A DNA stretch of 64,000 bases from Halosolutus gelatinilyticus (GCF_023028105.1 NZ_CP095491.1:186001-250000), one strand, 5' to 3'; shown: positions 15,779 through 22,919, counted from the stretch's first letter. Made by a program: numbers and translations. Notes: generated by a model not told the origin, from the letters alone.

Positions 15779-16567
15779 ATGGAACACGCAACACACGATC
15801 CCACGGCACCGGGCTGGAGGGACGCCGCTGTCGGCGAGCGGGCGGTCGACCGCTCCTCGTCGGCGCACCGATCGATCGACCGGAGCGGAACGACCGACGA
15901 CGGCATCGTCGAGACCGGGACGACGACGCTCGGCGCCGTCGGCCACGGGGGCGTCGTGCTGGCGGCCGACACGCGGGCGAGCATCGGCGGCGGTCGGTTC
16001 GTGACGAACCGCGCGGTCCAGAAGGTCGAGGCCGTCGACGAGCGAACGGCCGTCGCCTTCGCGGGCGGCGTCAGCGACGCTCAGTCGTTCGTGCGCCACC
16101 TTCGCGCCGACCTCCGGGTCTACGAACTGCGCCACGACCGCTCCGCGTCGGTCGAGACGGCGGCGACGGTGGCCGGAGACCTGCTCCGGCGCGGTCCGTA
16201 CCGGATCCTCGACCTCGTGCTCGCCGGCGTCGACGACGAGCCGGCCGTCTACCAGATCGGCCCCGGCGGCGGCGTCATGCGAAGCGAGTACGCGGCTAGC
16301 GGCAGCGGCAGACAGCTCGCCTACGGCGCGCTCGAGAGCTTCTACGAGGCCGACCTCCCGCTGTCGGACCTGCGATCGATCGCCGCGACCGCCGTCCGAG
16401 GTGCGACCGAACGCGACACCGCGAGCGGCGACGGGATGACGATCGCGACGATCACTTCCGACGAGTTCGAACTGGCGCAGTACGACGGCGTAGAGCGCGC
16501 GATCGCGGCGACCGAGGAGGGCGGACCCGCCGACGCGGCGGGCGACGGAACCGAGGAGGTGGCCTGA
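15779..16567 (+). CDS. psmB: Proteasome beta subunit (second, paralogous type)
   Basis: A 262-aa 20S proteasome beta subunit. A 47-residue propeptide ends in ETG, giving mature T48 (TTTLGAVGHGG) as the catalytic N-terminal Thr. Mature-chain residues D17 and the K of AVQKVEAVD (two positions later than the usual K33 because of a GG insertion) are kept, as are SGSGRQLAYGALE and RDTASGDGMTIA. It therefore looks catalytically competent. The tail is Gly/Ala/Glu-rich. It is followed at once by an alpha subunit gene. Most described haloarchaea carry unlinked core proteasome genes, so this is probably a paralogous pair. Confidence 0.9.
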   Translation: MEHATHDPTAPGWRDAAVGERAVDRSSSAHRSIDRSGTTDDGIVETGTTTLGAVGHGGVVLAADTRASIGGGRFVTNRAVQKVEAVDERTAVAFAGGVSDAQSFVRHLRADLRVYELRHDRSASVETAATVAGDLLRRGPYRILDLVLAGVDDEPAVYQIGPGGGVMRSEYAASGSGRQLAYGALESFYEADLPLSDLRSIAATAVRGATERDTASGDGMTIATITSDEFELAQYDGVERAIAATEEGGPADAAGDGTEEVA

Positions 16568-16568
16568 G

Positions 16569-17330
16569 ATGGAGTCGAGCGCCCACCAGCAGGCCTACGA
16601 TCGCGGCAGCACGATCTTCTCTCCCGACGGGCGGCTCTACCAGGTCGAGTACGCCCGGGAGGCAGTCGAACGGGGGTCGCCGAGCGTCGGCGTCGTCACC
16701 GACGACGGCGCCGTTCTCGCCGCCAGAAAGCGGCTGCGATCGCCGCTGCTCGAGTCGACGACCGTCGAGAAGATCCACCGCATCGACGATCACCTGGCGA
16801 TCGCGTCCGCCGGCCACGCCGCCGACGCGCGGCAACTCGTCGACGTCGCCCGCCGGGTCGGCCAGCAGCACCGCGTCCGCTACGGCGAACCGATCGATAC
16901 GCGAGCGCTCGCGACCCACGTCGCCGATCACGTCCAGGAACACACCCAGAGCGGCGGCTCGCGGCCGTACGGCTCAGCCCTGCTCGTCGCCGGGATCGAT
17001 CGTGGAGGTTCGGACGGGGCCGGCGGTCGGCCGCGGCTCTTCGAGGTCGACCCGAGCGGGACCCCGTACGGTTGGCGGGCGACGGCGATCGGCCACGACG
17101 CGGCCGCAGTCAGGGGATTCTTCGAGGATGAACTGGCCGACGGTAGCCGGAGAGACCTCCAGCAGGGAACCGCGGTCGCGCTCGAGGCGCTCGATCTGAC
17201 GACTGACGACGACCTCGCACCGGCGGCCCTCGACGCGTGGACGCTCGACGCGACGTCCGCAACCGTCGCGCCGCTCTCGGACGACGACCTCGAAGGCGCG
17301 CTCGAAGAACTCGACGACGAGGATCGATAG
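16569..17330 (+). CDS. psmA: Proteasome alpha subunit (second, paralogous type)
   Basis: A 253-aa 20S proteasome alpha subunit with the N-terminal alpha signature YDRGSTIFSPDGRLYQVEYAREAV and the GSPSVGVV strand. It starts one base after the beta stop codon, so the two are cotranscribed and probably assemble together. Compared with typical alpha subunits, the helix-2 to strand region (ESTTVEKIHRIDDHLAIASAG) is normal, but the mid-region has a Gly/Asp insertion (GGSDGAGGRP), and the C-terminus ends in an acidic tail. The acidic tail is common in haloarchaeal alpha subunits. Confidence 0.9.
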   Translation: MESSAHQQAYDRGSTIFSPDGRLYQVEYAREAVERGSPSVGVVTDDGAVLAARKRLRSPLLESTTVEKIHRIDDHLAIASAGHAADARQLVDVARRVGQQHRVRYGEPIDTRALATHVADHVQEHTQSGGSRPYGSALLVAGIDRGGSDGAGGRPRLFEVDPSGTPYGWRATAIGHDAAAVRGFFEDELADGSRRDLQQGTAVALEALDLTTDDDLAPAALDAWTLDATSATVAPLSDDDLEGALEELDDEDR

Positions 17331-17361: not shown

Positions 17362-18375
17362 TCAGTCGGTCGTCTCCTCGGCCGCCCGCTGGACGTCGAC
17401 CACAGTCAGTCGCTCGTCCACGTAGAGCGCGAGCACGTCCGAGTCGAGTTCGACGACGACGCGAACGGCGAGCGGCTCCTCGGAGAGCACCCGCTCGGCC
17501 CACTCGTGCCCGACGTTCCAGATCGGCCGATCGCGGACGGCCTCCCCGCGCTCGTGGTAGAACGAGACGATCGCCGGGTGCTCGAGCAGCGCGAGCGAGA
17601 CGGGACAGCGGACGGCCGTTCCGCAGGACCCGCACTCGAACTCGGCCTGGACGTGGGTCGCGAGCTCTTCGGGGAGCGCGTCGGCGACGTCCGCCGACGG
17701 CGTGACGAGCCCGGCGGTAACCGCGCCGCTGCAGTCCGGACAAACTCCGTCCCGAAACAGGGCGAGTCGGTGGCGGTGATGGCGGTCGAAGGCGGCGGGG
17801 AAGTCCCGACCGTGGGCCTCCAGCCCGGCCGGCGGGAACCCGAGGCGCAACAGCGCTCGGTCGCAGTCGTCGCAGGCGACCGTCACGACGTTATCGGTCG
17901 ATCGGGCTTCGAGGGCCGCCCCGTCGCAGAACGGGCAGGGATCGTCGAGAGGGACCGGAGGGAGATCGACCCTGCGAGTGTACGTGCCGGTAGCGATCGC
18001 CCGGGCGATCCGCTCGCCGGCGTACGTGAGTTCGTAACCGTCGTCGTACTTTCGCAGGTAGGGTCCGACGAGTTGCTCGAGGTGGTAGGCGAAGCCGGCG
18101 GACGTGTCGACGTCCGAGTCCTCGAACAGTTCGGAGAACGGAGTCCGGGACCGGTTCTCGCCGTCGGTCCGATCGAGCATCGTCTCCAGGATCCCCATCC
18201 GGATCTCGTTCCCGAGCGCCTGGAACGCGTCGCTGGGCTCCGAGACGAGTTCGGCTCGCCCGGCGGTCGACTCCGTCGGCTCCGCCGCGCTCGCCGGTTC
18301 GACGGCGGCGTCCGACTCGCTTCGGTCCGGCTTCGGTGATCCGGCCGCTACCTCGTCCGCGTCCTCGGACGGCAT
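17362..18375 (-). CDS. ArsR-like winged-helix regulator with zinc-binding C-terminal part
   Basis: A 337-aa protein. An acidic, Ser/Pro/Glu-rich leader (about 1-45) is followed by a winged helix-turn-helix (SDAFQALGNEIRMGILETML..FSELFE..AGFAYHLEQLVGPYLRK..DGYELTYAGERIARAI). The C-terminal 200 residues hold paired cysteines: CPFC, CDDC, CPDC and CGSC, probably two zinc sites. This layout is common among haloarchaeal regulators that belong to unnamed DUF families. Its target genes are unknown. It converges with the proteasome operon. Start at 18375 chosen because the upstream extension is an unrelated gene remnant. Confidence 0.78.
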   Translation of the reverse strand: MPSEDADEVAAGSPKPDRSESDAAVEPASAAEPTESTAGRAELVSEPSDAFQALGNEIRMGILETMLDRTDGENRSRTPFSELFEDSDVDTSAGFAYHLEQLVGPYLRKYDDGYELTYAGERIARAIATGTYTRRVDLPPVPLDDPCPFCDGAALEARSTDNVVTVACDDCDRALLRLGFPPAGLEAHGRDFPAAFDRHHRHRLALFRDGVCPDCSGAVTAGLVTPSADVADALPEELATHVQAEFECGSCGTAVRCPVSLALLEHPAIVSFYHERGEAVRDRPIWNVGHEWAERVLSEEPLAVRVVVELDSDVLALYVDERLTVVDVQRAAEETTD

Positions 18376-18509
18376 GAGTCGCCGTAGGCCGCGGAGAAAA
18401 AAGTAGCTTCCGCGCGAACGGGGCGTCGATGCAGTGACGGGAGGGCGGCGGCCGATACCGGATCGCCGCTTCAGTCCGCCAGATCCGCCGCCGCGAGTTC
18501 GGAACCGGG

Positions 18510-18582
18510 CGCTCCCGATCGGCGCCTGGACGATCGGATGCTCGATCCCGATCGTCTCCCCGAGTTTCGTTTGGAGTGTCAT
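18510..18582 (-). pseudogene. Remnant of a nitronate monooxygenase N-terminus
   Basis: Read on the minus strand from an ATG at 18582, the first 25 residues (LGETIGIEHPIVQAPIGSA) are an excellent match to the start of FMN-dependent nitronate monooxygenases. After that the frame is lost: a one-base shift restores GSELAAADLAD, which resembles the next family block (PELAAAVSNAGGLG), and then a stop follows. The remaining 300 or so residues are missing and the frame runs into the regulator gene at 18375. This is a truncated, frameshifted remnant. Confidence 0.6.
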
Positions 18583-18762: not shown

Positions 18763-18791
18763 TTACTCGCAGCGAGTAATCACAAGTGATT
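18763..18791 (+). promoter_or_regulatory. Two adjoining palindromes before the 44-aa protein gene
   Basis: First palindrome: ttactcgc-a-gcgagtaa (18763-18779). Second: aatcac-aa-gtgatt (18778-18791). They overlap by two bases and lie 25-50 nt upstream of the TATA element at 18816, the usual place for an archaeal activator site. No other position in this gap shows such symmetry. Confidence 0.5.
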
Positions 18792-18815
18792 TTGTACAGT
18801 CACGATTACGATACA

Positions 18816-18820
18816 TTTAT
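18816..18820 (+). promoter_or_regulatory. TATA box of the 44-aa protein gene
   Basis: The AT-rich element catttattg lies about 30 nt before the ATG at 18849, predicting a leader of only a few bases. Confidence 0.45.
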
Positions 18821-18848
18821 TGTGTTCGCATACCGTTCGTAGCATGCA

Positions 18849-18983
18849 ATGTCCGAAGATAACAGCAGCTTACTGGCGCACATCACCGAAAACCCGCGGC
18901 TGATCGGCATCCTGTTCGCGATCCTGCTTGCGCTCTCGCAGGCTGGATCGGCAGCGGCCGCCGCCGGCGGAACCACCTACTGA
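18849..18983 (+). CDS. 44-aa hydrophobic protein beside the CHAT protease gene
   Basis: A small gene of 44 residues. The N-terminus is polar (MSEDNSSLLAHITENPR), followed by one hydrophobic helix (LIGILFAILLALSQA) and a small-residue tail (GSAAAAAGGTTY). It looks like a single-span membrane or secreted peptide. I recall similar short haloarchaeal proteins of a DUF7503-like type, usually near HalOD1/DUF7504 genes, but cannot confirm this here. It has a TATA box and upstream palindromes. It converges on the CHAT protein gene with only 28 nt between stops. It could be a partner or substrate of that protease; this is inference. Confidence 0.65.
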   Translation: MSEDNSSLLAHITENPRLIGILFAILLALSQAGSAAAAAGGTTY

Positions 18984-19011
18984 AAGCGTACAACTGTAAT
19001 TTTCGCAGGAA

Positions 19012-21123
19012 TTAGCGGTCGAAGACGTCGACCGCGTCCGTCCACCCGGCCGACCCGTCGAAGACGAGAGGGAGGTCCTCGAGACGAAGGTACTGGGTTA
19101 GTTCGTCCGCTTCGACCGCGAAGGTGGGCAGCGCCCCGCCGGTCAAAAAGTGCGAGTCGACGTCGTCGAGGTACGGGATGTACATCGCTCCCATCCCCGC
19201 CTCCACCGTCGGATAGGTTTCGGCTACCAGATCGTACCGGCCGTCGTCCCGCGAGTCGACGCGAAAGCGAACCGGCGTCCCGCCCTCGCTCTGTGCGACC
19301 TGCGCGGAACCGTCGCCGACGACGAGGTATTGCGTGCCGACGATTCGATGATCGCGAGCGATGACGAGCGCCGATCGAAGGGAGAACCCGGCGTTCAGCA
19401 GCCGCGCGATCGACCGTCCGATCGCCGTCGCGTCCTCGTTGCCGACGTCGCTGTGCGTGACGATTCCGCCGACGCTTCCGCCCTCGACCAGCCTGATTCC
19501 TTGCTCGTAGGAGGTACAGCCGTTGAGGAGGAACGCGTGGGGACCGATCCGATCGACGTCGGCCGCGTTCACCCGGCCGTCGTGACAGATGAACGCGTCC
19601 GACTCGCTGTGGCCGATGTAGTGCAGAAAGTCGGTGTCGGTCGCGAGGACGTCTTCGAGTTCCGCCGTGGCGAGATCGTAGTGAACCGTGACGTCGAACG
19701 GTAGTTCGTGGCGGTTACCGTACAGCGATCGATTCGCGTCGTCGTACTCGGCGCTCATCGCCGGATCGTTACAGACGACGGTGATCTCCACCTCGTCGGA
19801 CGGCCGCCCTCGTTCGATGCGGTGTTCGAACCCGCAGTCGAGCAGGTGGTTCGCGCCGACGGGCCGTTCGTCACCGAGCCACGCGATCTCCAGGGAGTCG
19901 GTGTCCGGGAGCGAGACGTAGGACGCGTCGGCGGGTTCGGGTCCTTCGCTCGATCGCCTCGTCGTCCCGACGGCGGTATCCGCCGGTGCCCGCGACGATC
20001 TGAAGAACTCGTCGATACCGGGAGCCGCCGCGGCCGGTTCCGGCGTCGACGATCGGCCGACCGCCGATCGAATCAACGAGAGTTCGTTGACGACGAACGG
20101 CAGCGAGGTGGCGTTGTGCGGGGCCGGGGTCGCGTACGTTACGAGTCGCCAGGACGGGACGAGGTCGGCGAGGTCGGCGTACGGGACCGACAGGTACGTC
20201 TCCAGTCGGTCGGCGGGCGACGCGTCGTACGCCGCCCGCCAGTCGACGTCGAGTCGATCGTCGAGCACGTCGCGCTCGTGGAGGGCGATCCGATAGAGCC
20301 CTTCGGTCCTCGCGACGCAGTCGAGCAGGAAACACCGCCCGAGGACCCGTTCCACCTCGTCTTCGAAGTCGCGACCCTCGCCCGAGAGCGGGTACGTCCG
20401 ATCGGTTCGCGTGACGATCTGTGGCTCCGGTCCCGGCTCGAGGGTCGCCCCGAGATAGTACGCGAGGGTGCTCGCCGCGTAGACCGTCGATCGCTCCGGC
20501 GGGAGCTCGATCCGAATCCCGGTTTCCGGCGCGGAGAGTTCGTCGGGGATCCGGAGTTCGCCGCCGAGTTCGAGCCGGGGCGGGTGCCCGCGGAGGGAGG
20601 GGAGCGAGCGCTCCGGCGAGAGCGTCTTCAGCGCGGAGCCGAACGTCGAGACGGCCGCCATCAGATCGGCCGGGTCGGCCGTCGTCGTCACCGTCGTTTC
20701 CGGACGGCGGTGGTTCGAGCGCGCGCCGATTTCCAGGCGGCGGCGCTCGTCGAACTCGATCCGCATGTGATCGGTCGAGGACGCGATCGTCACCGGCCCG
20801 CCGACGCGGACGTAGATCTTTATCGGCGCCATCAGCTCCAGCACGTACTCGCCCGGCGGAAGCTCCTCGTAGGCGAAGTGCTCGGCTTCGGCGACTAGTT
20901 CGCCGTCGGCGACGTCGCGAACGTACACCGCGACGACGAACGGGAGCGTGATTCGATCGGTCTCGATCGTCGTCGCGCCGTCGACCGGGAAGAGGAACCG
21001 GTCGTCATCAGCCGGTTTCGGATCGACCGCGCTGCGGGTTCGGAGCGGGAACTGACGGCCCTGAATCGGGTCGTGAACGACGATTCCGCTCGTGCCGTTG
21101 GCCGGTCGAAACGTCGGTTTCAT
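19012..21123 (-). CDS. CHAT/caspase-like protease domain protein
   Basis: A 703-aa protein with no signal peptide. The C-terminal third carries a CHAT-type catalytic dyad: H505 in DFLHYIGHSESDAF and C536 in FLLNGCTSYEQG, followed by the GGIVTHSDV strand that lines the active site in CHAT proteases. The first 200 residues look beta-rich (GEYVLELMAPIKIYVRVGG) and may be a recognition domain; residues 355-400 are a Pro/Ala/Ser linker. CHAT is a clan CD cysteine peptidase fold related to caspases. The gene follows the HalOD1 protein gene by 48 nt on the same strand, so they probably form an operon. Its substrate is unknown. Confidence 0.8.
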   Translation of the reverse strand: MKPTFRPANGTSGIVVHDPIQGRQFPLRTRSAVDPKPADDDRFLFPVDGATTIETDRITLPFVVAVYVRDVADGELVAEAEHFAYEELPPGEYVLELMAPIKIYVRVGGPVTIASSTDHMRIEFDERRRLEIGARSNHRRPETTVTTTADPADLMAAVSTFGSALKTLSPERSLPSLRGHPPRLELGGELRIPDELSAPETGIRIELPPERSTVYAASTLAYYLGATLEPGPEPQIVTRTDRTYPLSGEGRDFEDEVERVLGRCFLLDCVARTEGLYRIALHERDVLDDRLDVDWRAAYDASPADRLETYLSVPYADLADLVPSWRLVTYATPAPHNATSLPFVVNELSLIRSAVGRSSTPEPAAAAPGIDEFFRSSRAPADTAVGTTRRSSEGPEPADASYVSLPDTDSLEIAWLGDERPVGANHLLDCGFEHRIERGRPSDEVEITVVCNDPAMSAEYDDANRSLYGNRHELPFDVTVHYDLATAELEDVLATDTDFLHYIGHSESDAFICHDGRVNAADVDRIGPHAFLLNGCTSYEQGIRLVEGGSVGGIVTHSDVGNEDATAIGRSIARLLNAGFSLRSALVIARDHRIVGTQYLVVGDGSAQVAQSEGGTPVRFRVDSRDDGRYDLVAETYPTVEAGMGAMYIPYLDDVDSHFLTGGALPTFAVEADELTQYLRLEDLPLVFDGSAGWTDAVDVFDR

Positions 21124-21171
21124 AGGAGTCTCTTGGGTCTCGAATCCGTCGAGCCGCGCCGTCGGTACCGA

Positions 21172-22389
21172 TTACGTCTCGGTACCGCCGACATCGGTTT
21201 GGAACCACTCGGTCGTGTGTCCCGTCTCGCGGATGTGCCAGCGCTGTTCGGGGCCGTCGGCGCCGACGCGCAGTTCGACGACGACGTCAAACAGTTCCTC
21301 GACGGCTCGCACGTGTTCGGAGGTGCGATCCGTCAGCATCACGTAATGGCCGATCCCCGAGGCCCGTCGAACCCGGTCCGTGACGGTTTCGAGAAAGTCG
21401 GCGACGGAGTCGCCGTCGTACTGCGATCGAATCGAGCCGAGGGAATCGAGACAGACGCGAAGCTGTCCGGGGGAGAGTCCGTCGCACGCGGCCGCGAGCG
21501 TCTCCACTGCGTCGACGAGCTCCGCGGCCAGCGCGTCGAGATCGCCGGCTACCGGTCTGACCGACGGCCGTTGGGGTGCCGCCTCCATCGCGGCGACGGA
21601 TCGGCTGCCGCCGCCGTGATCGACGACGACGGAGCGCGGGGGAGCGGCCTCGACCGCGTCCAGCCGATCGATCGCGCTCTCGACGTCGTGTCCGTGGACG
21701 GCGACGACGCGGGCGCGATCCGGGGCCGTCCCGAGCAGATCGCGGCTGGTCGCCTCGCTGACTTCGTGCGGGACCGAGCCCACGACGAGGAGGTTCCCGC
21801 CGGTTCGGTTGATTCGGGTGAGCGTCGGCTGGACCGTCACCGTCCCGCCGCTGCGGACTATGATATCGTACTCGTGAAACGGCACGCGGAGTCCGCCCTC
21901 ACCGCGCGCGACTCCGTTTCCTCGGGGGCGAAAGAGCGCGTTCAGCGCGTTCCGATCGAGAACCGCGTCGATCGCGTCCCGGACGGCGATCGGGTCGGCG
22001 TCGGTCGCGGCCGTAACCGCCGAGACGACCGTGGAGAGTAGCGATTGCGGGCCGTCCCAGTCGTGAGTGACCGTCGCCGCCGCCGCGTCGTCGATCGCGC
22101 CCAGCGCGTCCGTCGCGGACGCGCTCGGCCGATCGAGAACGGTTATCGTTTCGTCGCTCTCGACGATCGAAACCGCGTCGTCGATTTCGAGTGCGACGAC
22201 CACCGTCGGCGAGTCGGCGGTCGCGGGGTCGAAGAGCGCGTTCAGTGCGTCGGGATCCACGATGTCGTTGAGCACGGGGACATCGTACGGGCTGGCTCCC
22301 GTCGCCTCTGCGACCGCGCGTACCAGCCCGGACGCGACCGCCGCTCCGTGTGTTCCCGAGGTGTCTACCGACGACTCGTCGCCGTTCAT
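21172..22389 (-). CDS. Tandem HalOD1 sensor protein with DUF7504/KaiC-like C-terminal part
   Basis: A 405-aa protein. Two HalOD1 output-domain copies are visible: residues about 15-88 (VLNDIVDPDALNALFDP) and 113-190 (AIDAVLDRNALNALFRP). They share the core NALNALF and a following strand ending in a V-x-V-L/Q motif. The C-terminal half (about 195-405) resembles the haloarchaeal HTR-like/DUF7504 group (GGNLLVVGSVPHEVSEATSRDLL, LRVCLDSLGSIRSQYD), a degenerate RecA/KaiC fold that lacks a good Walker A. HalOD1 is found on haloarchaeal two-component outputs. Start at 22389 agrees with a TATA-like gtattcat about 28 nt upstream. Confidence 0.7.
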   Translation of the reverse strand: MNGDESSVDTSGTHGAAVASGLVRAVAEATGASPYDVPVLNDIVDPDALNALFDPATADSPTVVVALEIDDAVSIVESDETITVLDRPSASATDALGAIDDAAAATVTHDWDGPQSLLSTVVSAVTAATDADPIAVRDAIDAVLDRNALNALFRPRGNGVARGEGGLRVPFHEYDIIVRSGGTVTVQPTLTRINRTGGNLLVVGSVPHEVSEATSRDLLGTAPDRARVVAVHGHDVESAIDRLDAVEAAPPRSVVVDHGGGSRSVAAMEAAPQRPSVRPVAGDLDALAAELVDAVETLAAACDGLSPGQLRVCLDSLGSIRSQYDGDSVADFLETVTDRVRRASGIGHYVMLTDRTSEHVRAVEELFDVVVELRVGADGPEQRWHIRETGHTTEWFQTDVGGTET

Positions 22390-22477
22390 ACAGCCCCGTT
22401 CGTGATCCAGAGATGAATACCCATCGCTCAAACGGGGTTCGTCTGGACGATCAATTTCAATGATCCAGCACGACCTG

Positions 22478-22483
22478 TTAATA
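22478..22483 (+). promoter_or_regulatory. TATA box of the 22509 regulator gene
   Basis: The element ttaata (in gttaatacg) sits about 28 nt before the ATG at 22509, so a leaderless transcript is expected. The gap to the divergent HalOD1 gene is 119 bp and must contain both promoters. Confidence 0.5.
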
Positions 22484-22508
22484 CGTTCGACCACGATAGC
22501 GTGCACTG

Positions 22509-22919
22509 ATGACCGAAGACGCCGACGATCGATCCGGGGATGCCGGCTCGAATATCCCGCACGACCTCTCGATGCGGTTGGCCACAGAGGGTGAGCGATC
22601 GCGCGTCGACGAACTCTTCGACGCGCTCTCTCACCGGCGGCGTCGTCTCGTGCTGTACTATCTGAAAGCCAACGAACAGACCACCCTCGACGAACTCGCC
22701 GACTGGGTCGCTACGATCGAAGCCAGACCGAACGGAAGCGAAGCGACGGCCGAGCAGCGGGAAGCCGCCGCAATCGATCTCTTTCACATCCACCTTCCGA
22801 AACTGGCCGATCTGAAGGTTATCGAATACGACCGTCGAAGCGGCGACGCCAGGTACCGCGATCCGCCGGAGACGGTCGACCAACTGCTCCGGGCGGCGGC
22901 GGTGATGGAGTTCGAGTAA
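22509..22919 (+). CDS. Winged-helix transcriptional regulator (DUF7344-like)
   Basis: A 136-aa protein built around one winged helix domain: DELFDALSHRRRRLVLYYLKANEQTTLDELADWV, an insert, then AAIDLFHIHLPKLADLKVIEYDRRSGDARY. This arrangement is typical of the haloarchaeal DUF7344 group of ArsR-like regulators, which often lie beside HalOD1/DUF7504 genes. It is divergent from the HalOD1-CHAT operon and is the natural candidate to regulate it and the 44-aa protein gene. Confidence 0.78.
   Translation: MTEDADDRSGDAGSNIPHDLSMRLATEGERSRVDELFDALSHRRRRLVLYYLKANEQTTLDELADWVATIEARPNGSEATAEQREAAAIDLFHIHLPKLADLKVIEYDRRSGDARYRDPPETVDQLLRAAAVMEFE

Follow-up and report, generated by a model that had tools for sequence, protein, structure and literature searches.

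A divergent CHAT peptidase family of haloarchaea and its convergent DUF7503 microprotein

Described CHAT peptidases and the haloarchaeal protein

The closest described systems are CHAT peptidases of clan CD, among them SAVED-CHAT, Csx29 (TPR-CHAT), separase, and gingipain. Separase is inhibited by securin, and bacterial gasdermins are effectors that are activated by proteases. In Craspase, the type III-E CRISPR system, Csx30 is the substrate of Csx29, and the C-terminal part of Csx30 is needed for recognition and cleavage (PMC10028731). Within the archaea, very high caspase-like activity has been described in extracts of Haloferax volcanii; archaeal genomes were said to have no clear caspase homologues, and the authors asked for the responsible protein to be found (PMC3615174).

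Here we analyze a locus of Halosolutus gelatinilyticus contained in a 64,000-nt stretch of DNA (hereafter the window; positions are counted from its first nucleotide). The original prediction had read four neighboring genes as one CHAT-protease signaling system, and all four open reading frames were found where it had placed them. By predicted fold and dyad, the 703-aa product of one of them (19012-21123, minus strand) is a CHAT (caspase-fold) peptidase, presumably a catalytic one. Its AlphaFold model, obtained with an alignment of 74 homologues (pLDDT 90.8, pTM 0.90), is composed of an N-terminal part (residues ~1-360), a disordered linker (368-390), the CHAT domain (~400-610), and a C-terminal part (~618-700). 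The top fold match in the PDB is the SAVED-CHAT filament protein 8tl0 (E 4.5e-7); further matches are separases (5fby, 5fc3), gingipains, Csx29 (8eey, 7zoq), and, more weakly, caspases including caspase-6. The predicted catalytic residues, His505 (codon 19609-19611, minus strand) and Cys536 (codon 19516-19518, minus strand), are invariant among the 74 homologues, and each is kept in 139 of the 143 sequences of a wider alignment. The AlphaFold model, the fold search, and the conservation of the dyad all agree with the H505/C536 pair proposed originally, and structure prediction shows a CHAT fold around both residues.

The exceptions in the alignment of 143 sequences are L106, which is truncated and contains an ambiguous base, the outgroup sequence L167, and L181 and L182. 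The last two are long-branch homologues with a Pro in the His505 column, a gap at Cys536, and no partner microprotein, and they are probably degenerate or misaligned copies.

The likeness to the described clan CD enzymes lies in the fold of residues ~400-610 and in the His-Cys dyad. The partner differs, being a convergent microprotein here instead of Csx30, cohesin, or a CRISPR/SAVED sensor, and so does the sequence. The Pfam CHAT model (PF12770) does not match the window protein, and its relatives reach only 13-17 bits against a cut-off of 24, aligned at the right place, which marks a subfamily that is divergent and for the most part unannotated. No above-threshold match for the protein came from Pfam, from NCBIfam, or from single-sequence and profile searches of PDB sequences, and its fold was revealed by structure comparison alone; no domain match was reported for its N-terminal ~360 residues.

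Occurrence of the family, its partner, and its neighbors

Full-length homologues of the peptidase were found in 100 of the 117 genomes that were sampled across the haloarchaeal order (87 of the 97 good genomes and 41 of 49 genera), often in several copies; a single genome has as many as 11 match places, a part of these being split pieces. In a wider sample of the phylum, other matches were found only in four genomes of one family. Some haloarchaeal plasmids carry copies, mostly annotated as "hypothetical protein," and neither the phage records nor the viral contigs searched contain any. This pattern of occurrence indicates a widespread haloarchaeal family and not a defense island. In a FastTree phylogeny of 115 CHAT proteins, some of them on long branches, DUF7503 is confined to one large clade (A), and a paralogue clade (B) and an outgroup have no profile-detectable DUF7503.

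The role in immunity or cell death that had been suggested for the locus is not borne out. PADLOC returned no match for the DUF7503, CHAT, or HalOD1/DUF7504 proteins and only weak Csa3-type winged-helix matches for DUF7344. No gasdermin or CRISPR genes were recognized among the CHAT neighbors, and Pfam gave no gasdermin match in the four proteins of the window. Given the lack of PADLOC, phage, and viral-contig matches for CHAT, and its widespread multicopy occurrence, phage defense was rejected as its function.

The 44-aa gene (18849-18983, plus strand) encodes a member of DUF7503 (PF24335, E=2.1e-14, 53.3 bits against a cut-off of 27). Its association with CHAT, supposed from proximity, is real, although the gene is convergent with CHAT, with 28 nt between the two stop codons, and lies outside the CHAT operon. 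Among the 117 genomes, DUF7503 scores over its cut-off in 95, every one of which also has CHAT, and in no case does it do so in the 17 genomes that lack CHAT (Fisher p=2e-16). A listed convergent CHAT gene is present at 117 of the 150 listed DUF7503 places. Out of the remaining 33, we fetched 29, and 26 of these have an unlisted convergent CHAT gene; the three exceptions are a contig end (L097), a CHAT gene on the same strand 1.4 kb away (L107), and a lone copy (L123). Seen from the peptidase, a convergent DUF7503 gene stands at 103 of 140 scorable CHAT copies (~74%) and at most of 45 named CHAT loci, which are largely from Halorubrum. The layout is also tight: stop codons lie -21 to +20 nt apart in 103 of 127 pairs (81%), compared with 21 of 117 control pairs (18%), which were other convergent long-ORF pairs of the same loci.

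Tandem or duplicated DUF7503 genes were seen beside CHAT at L097, L112, and L057, with differing tails (NNTGMTNGP and NQIGANPGP at L112), and two DUF7503 copies with equal scores are found at G056:C1:486534-486796. Additionally, in one genome the DUF7503/CHAT/DUF7504 copy has another CHAT gene beside it (L124, 5694-7712; C1, ~1.817 Mb), for which no partner was detectable.

The 405-aa protein (21172-22389, minus strand) is encoded on the same strand as CHAT and 48 nt upstream of it, the gap having been given correctly by the original prediction. The domain calls made there, namely tandem HalOD1, a DUF7504-like C-terminus, and a DUF7344-like regulator, likewise correspond to Pfam matches above cut-offs. 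HalOD1 matches in two stretches (E=8e-24, 84 bits), the best PF18545 stretch being the second domain (residues 115-188; 21826-22047, minus strand), and DUF7504 (PF24336; E=1e-43, 150 bits) occupies residues 197-373 (21271-21801, minus strand). Divergent from this gene, a 136-aa winged-helix-type protein (22509-22919, plus strand) matches DUF7344 (PF24035, E=6.4e-23).

In the AlphaFold model of the 405-aa protein (pLDDT 84.5), DUF7504 has a KaiC/RecA-like fold that matches the KaiC CI domain (E=2e-8, TM-score (target) 0.56). A Walker A P-loop (GxxxxGK[ST]) is missing from the window's DUF7504 and from the family consensus GxNLLVVGxVxxxxxxxAxxxLLG, so we call the domain a KaiC-like fold and not an ATPase. 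A fold of this kind lacking the canonical Walker A motif suggests that the role of DUF7504 across haloarchaea is non-catalytic or one of unusual nucleotide sensing; the domain occurs in all of the 97 good genomes. The HalOD1 domain is shared with DdfA, the disk-determining factor of H. volcanii (PMC10869688), and the NCBIfam DdfA model NF053557 reaches 72.5 (cut-off 70) when summed over the two HalOD1 stretches. We did not file the window protein as DdfA because its architecture differs: the tandem HalOD1 is fused to DUF7504 and lies beside CHAT, not beside rdfA/sph3, and orthology is not implied.

Only DUF7503 and DUF7504 are broadly recurrent CHAT neighbors, the latter lying upstream of 49 of 133 scorable copies (~37%). 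The HalOD1-DUF7504 fusion appears once on the CHAT tree, in the window's clade, with HalOD1 at 9 of 121 CHAT loci. DUF7344 is found at 7 of 117, six of them being the loci of the window's clade that have enough flank and keep DUF7503, and one lying elsewhere; it occupies the same place in L006-L009 and L230. Independent events of DUF7503 and DUF7504 co-loss on the tree are few. The four-gene module was rejected as a unit because the tree shows a single appearance of HalOD1, with DUF7344 all but limited to the same clade. What stands of it is the recurrence of CHAT with the 44-aa gene, whereas HalOD1 and DUF7344 are mainly limited to the window's clade and the companion of broader occurrence is DUF7504 lacking HalOD1. 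The core unit is the two-gene CHAT/DUF7503 pair, and the HalOD1/DUF7504 fusion and DUF7344 are best regarded as control elements particular to a clade.

CHAT, DUF7503, DUF7504, HalOD1, and DUF7344 are already named families, and the window proteins score above the curated Pfam cut-offs for the last four. DUF7503, DUF7504, and DUF7344 are listed in Pfam as being of unknown function, with no link to CHAT. Among open-licence PMC papers, we found none that names these three families and no description of the CHAT pairing.

Other genes near the module were also noted. A 406-aa ORF with DUF7347 and DUF7351 domains (17362-18582, minus strand) adjoins it and does not recur near other CHAT copies in the fetched loci. 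About 2 kb from the module, two neighboring genes (15779-17330, plus strand) resemble proteasome beta- and alpha-type subunits when their translations are read by eye, and an alpha-subunit homologue also lies ~4-6 kb from clade-B CHAT copies in Natrialbaceae-type genomes (L125, L169-L173).

Leaders, tails, and Gly-Pro ends of the microproteins

In the leaders of 127 distinct DUF7503 sequences, a near-invariant Pro is followed by Arg/Lys, a hydrophobic run of 12-13 residues, and then a cleavage-like site, where 92% have a helix breaker at positions -6 to -4 and 100% have a small or aliphatic residue at -3 and a small residue at -1. This pattern is signal-peptidase-I-like, from which cleavage, export, and topology can be predicted. 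On sequence statistics, DUF7503 combines an export-type leader with a variable, short mature part: the tail has 7-9 residues with few charges, 122 of the 127 tails are distinct, and paralogues of one genome differ in their tails. Despite this variability, 74 of 88 distinct DUF7503 proteins end in Gly-Pro. In the window, the family alignment places the predicted variable tail, the seven residues AAGGTTY (18960-18980, plus strand), after a signal-peptidase-I-like AxA at which the leader may be cut. It belongs to a minority type without Gly-Pro that occurs in several CHAT clades, including the window's.

The microprotein gene has its own promoter-like region. A conserved AT-rich, TATA-like block is present in 88 distinct upstream regions and reads ATACATTTATT in the window (18811-18821, plus strand; -38 to -28 from the ATG). 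Farther upstream, at -60 to -52, lies another AT-rich block that is likewise conserved, and the bases directly preceding the ATG show a conserved T-G-C/T; these elements are possibly a regulator site.

Codon comparisons covered 34 loci, almost all from Halorubrum. The leader has a pN/pS of 0.29 and the C-terminal Pro-Gly-Pro one of 0.06, while the five variable tail codons have a pN of 0.47 and a pN/pS of 0.60 with pS saturated. Positive selection on the tail is not supported by these values, and with a ratio of this size and saturated pS its variable part may be a relaxed spacer within Halorubrum. The alternative that Gly-Pro reflects a terminator hairpin at the DNA level is disfavored because the C-terminal codons change often at synonymous positions (pS 0.68) and seldom in the amino acid that they encode (pN 0.04).

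Similar ends are found beyond DUF7503. At CHAT loci without profile-detectable DUF7503, 17 of 37 have a convergent small ORF that ends in Gly-Pro at the CHAT stop codon, compared with 11 of 424 control long genes (2.6%; p=1e-17); the 17 cases correspond to about five independent lineages, for which a conservative count gives p ~1e-4. For instance, Natrialbaceae-type members of clade B encode a microprotein ending in ...KRVSTYGGP, in which a dibasic KR immediately precedes VSTYGGP and the tail codons vary only synonymously in most members. Other CHAT-adjacent microproteins are hydrophilic and end in ...CTYSGP, or divergent and hydrophobic and end in ...STGP. Further loci have more Gly-Pro microproteins beside CHAT, and some clade-B and Halorubrum CHAT paralogues have none. 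Overlap with the 3' end of CHAT is seen for the ORFs of L129-L132 and L234, whose tails could therefore in part mirror CHAT coding. Since unrelated leaders beside CHAT share the Gly-Pro end, the C-terminus of the microprotein, and not its membrane leader, is likely to be the recognized part, as judged from these comparisons.

The same observations bear on whether the two proteins interact at all. Stop codons that abut or overlap in most pairs, together with a conserved and independent DUF7503 promoter, would also be expected if the tail-to-tail transcripts regulated each other in antisense, or if the genes were co-inherited and their products never touched. We consider such a purely regulatory neighborhood decidedly unlikely: pairs whose genes lie 50-675 nt apart are still retained, the near-absence of amino-acid change in the terminal Pro-Gly-Pro indicates constraint on the microprotein at the protein level, and a shared end behind unrelated leaders argues in the same direction.

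The 44-aa protein had been described as hydrophobic and membrane-active-looking. Its hydrophobic segment is confirmed, but membrane activity is only one reading of a leader that resembles a signal peptide, and the conserved recurring feature is the C-terminal tail. A membrane-active DUF7503 peptide, kept harmless or activated through cleavage by CHAT, would be a miniature gasdermin-like switch of death or immunity, as first imagined. The hydrophobic segment beside a dedicated caspase-fold protease would fit this, as would the analogy with the protease-activated gasdermins of bacteria. We nevertheless hold it to be very unlikely, since several partner microproteins are hydrophilic, the hydrophobic run is short and the tail poor in charges, and the family is widespread and multicopy, with no defense-model matches for CHAT and no viral copies.

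Proposed mechanism and significance

The reading that we prefer, and to which we give about an even chance, is that the tail of the microprotein gates its partner, a caspase-fold endopeptidase, or is acted on by it, and that control by the KaiC-like/HalOD1 and winged-helix proteins is optional. The CHAT protein would be a cytoplasmic Cys endopeptidase, and the tail would switch it on or off as its cognate ligand, as its substrate, or as an inhibitory pseudosubstrate. Each paralogous CHAT protease would have its own tail, and optional upstream control would come from the DUF7344 regulator and from the KaiC-like DUF7504, which is fused to HalOD1 at this locus. The output is more likely to be stress or cell-state signaling than phage defense.

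Csx29-Csx30 and securin-separase serve as models for a gated or cleaved partner of this kind. Csx29-Csx30 (PMC10028731) is alike in that a CHAT protease has a dedicated partner encoded beside it; it differs in that the haloarchaeal locus has no Cas7-11 or TPR, and in that the partner is ~45 aa long, convergent, and variable in its tail, with cleavage here a prediction. Tails without Gly-Pro, in the window and elsewhere, and ~20 sampled CHAT copies with no detectable partner microprotein speak against a ligand or substrate role. The CHAT residues conserved exclusively in the DUF7503-bearing clade are spread over the whole protein and thus indicate no single interface.

The chief difficulty lies in topology. 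The leader resembles a signal peptide and has positive charge before its hydrophobic run, which predicts a tail outside the cell, so a cytoplasmic CHAT protein would need its re-import or its recognition before export, and this makes a released peptide signal the strongest rival. Signal peptidase I would then cut the DUF7503 leader to free a peptide of 7-9 residues, usually ending in Gly-Pro, as a self or cell-cell signal; CHAT and DUF7504 would act downstream of re-import, or CHAT would help in processing. The signal-peptidase-I-like leaders, the diversity of the tails and their differences between paralogues of one genome, the microprotein's own promoter, and the dibasic site of clade B are all consistent with secretion. 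However, the leader residues are more conserved than a generic signal peptide would need, the partner microproteins of L129-L132 and L235 have no hydrophobic leader, and no dedicated transporter or receptor recurs beside the CHAT/DUF7503 pair, which leads us to regard a secreted signal as unlikely.

Returning to a peptidase controlled through the tail of its microprotein, a broader proposal can be put forward tentatively, and we are inclined to doubt it in its full extent. The haloarchaeal CHAT proteins and their tail-to-tail microproteins may form an undescribed peptide-gated protease system, in which the tail is released or displayed as a paralogue-specific switch signal. Such a system might represent an archaeal peptide-signaling or caspase pathway and might possibly be the genetic basis of the caspase-like activity of H. 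volcanii. This species has DUF7503 and DUF7504, which served as a positive control in our profile searches, and a CHAT protein is expected there from DUF7503 co-occurrence alone; we propose the CHAT family as candidate genes for that activity. With a widespread caspase-fold family whose dyad is intact, the question of the caspase activity becomes testable by deleting named genes.

The CHAT/DUF7503 pair is a rare case in which the partner of an archaeal microprotein is clear, the gene layout is conserved, and a short, defined motif can be mutated. In a so far unstudied gene family that is present in most haloarchaea in one or more copies, this layout points to a dedicated enzyme-peptide switch.
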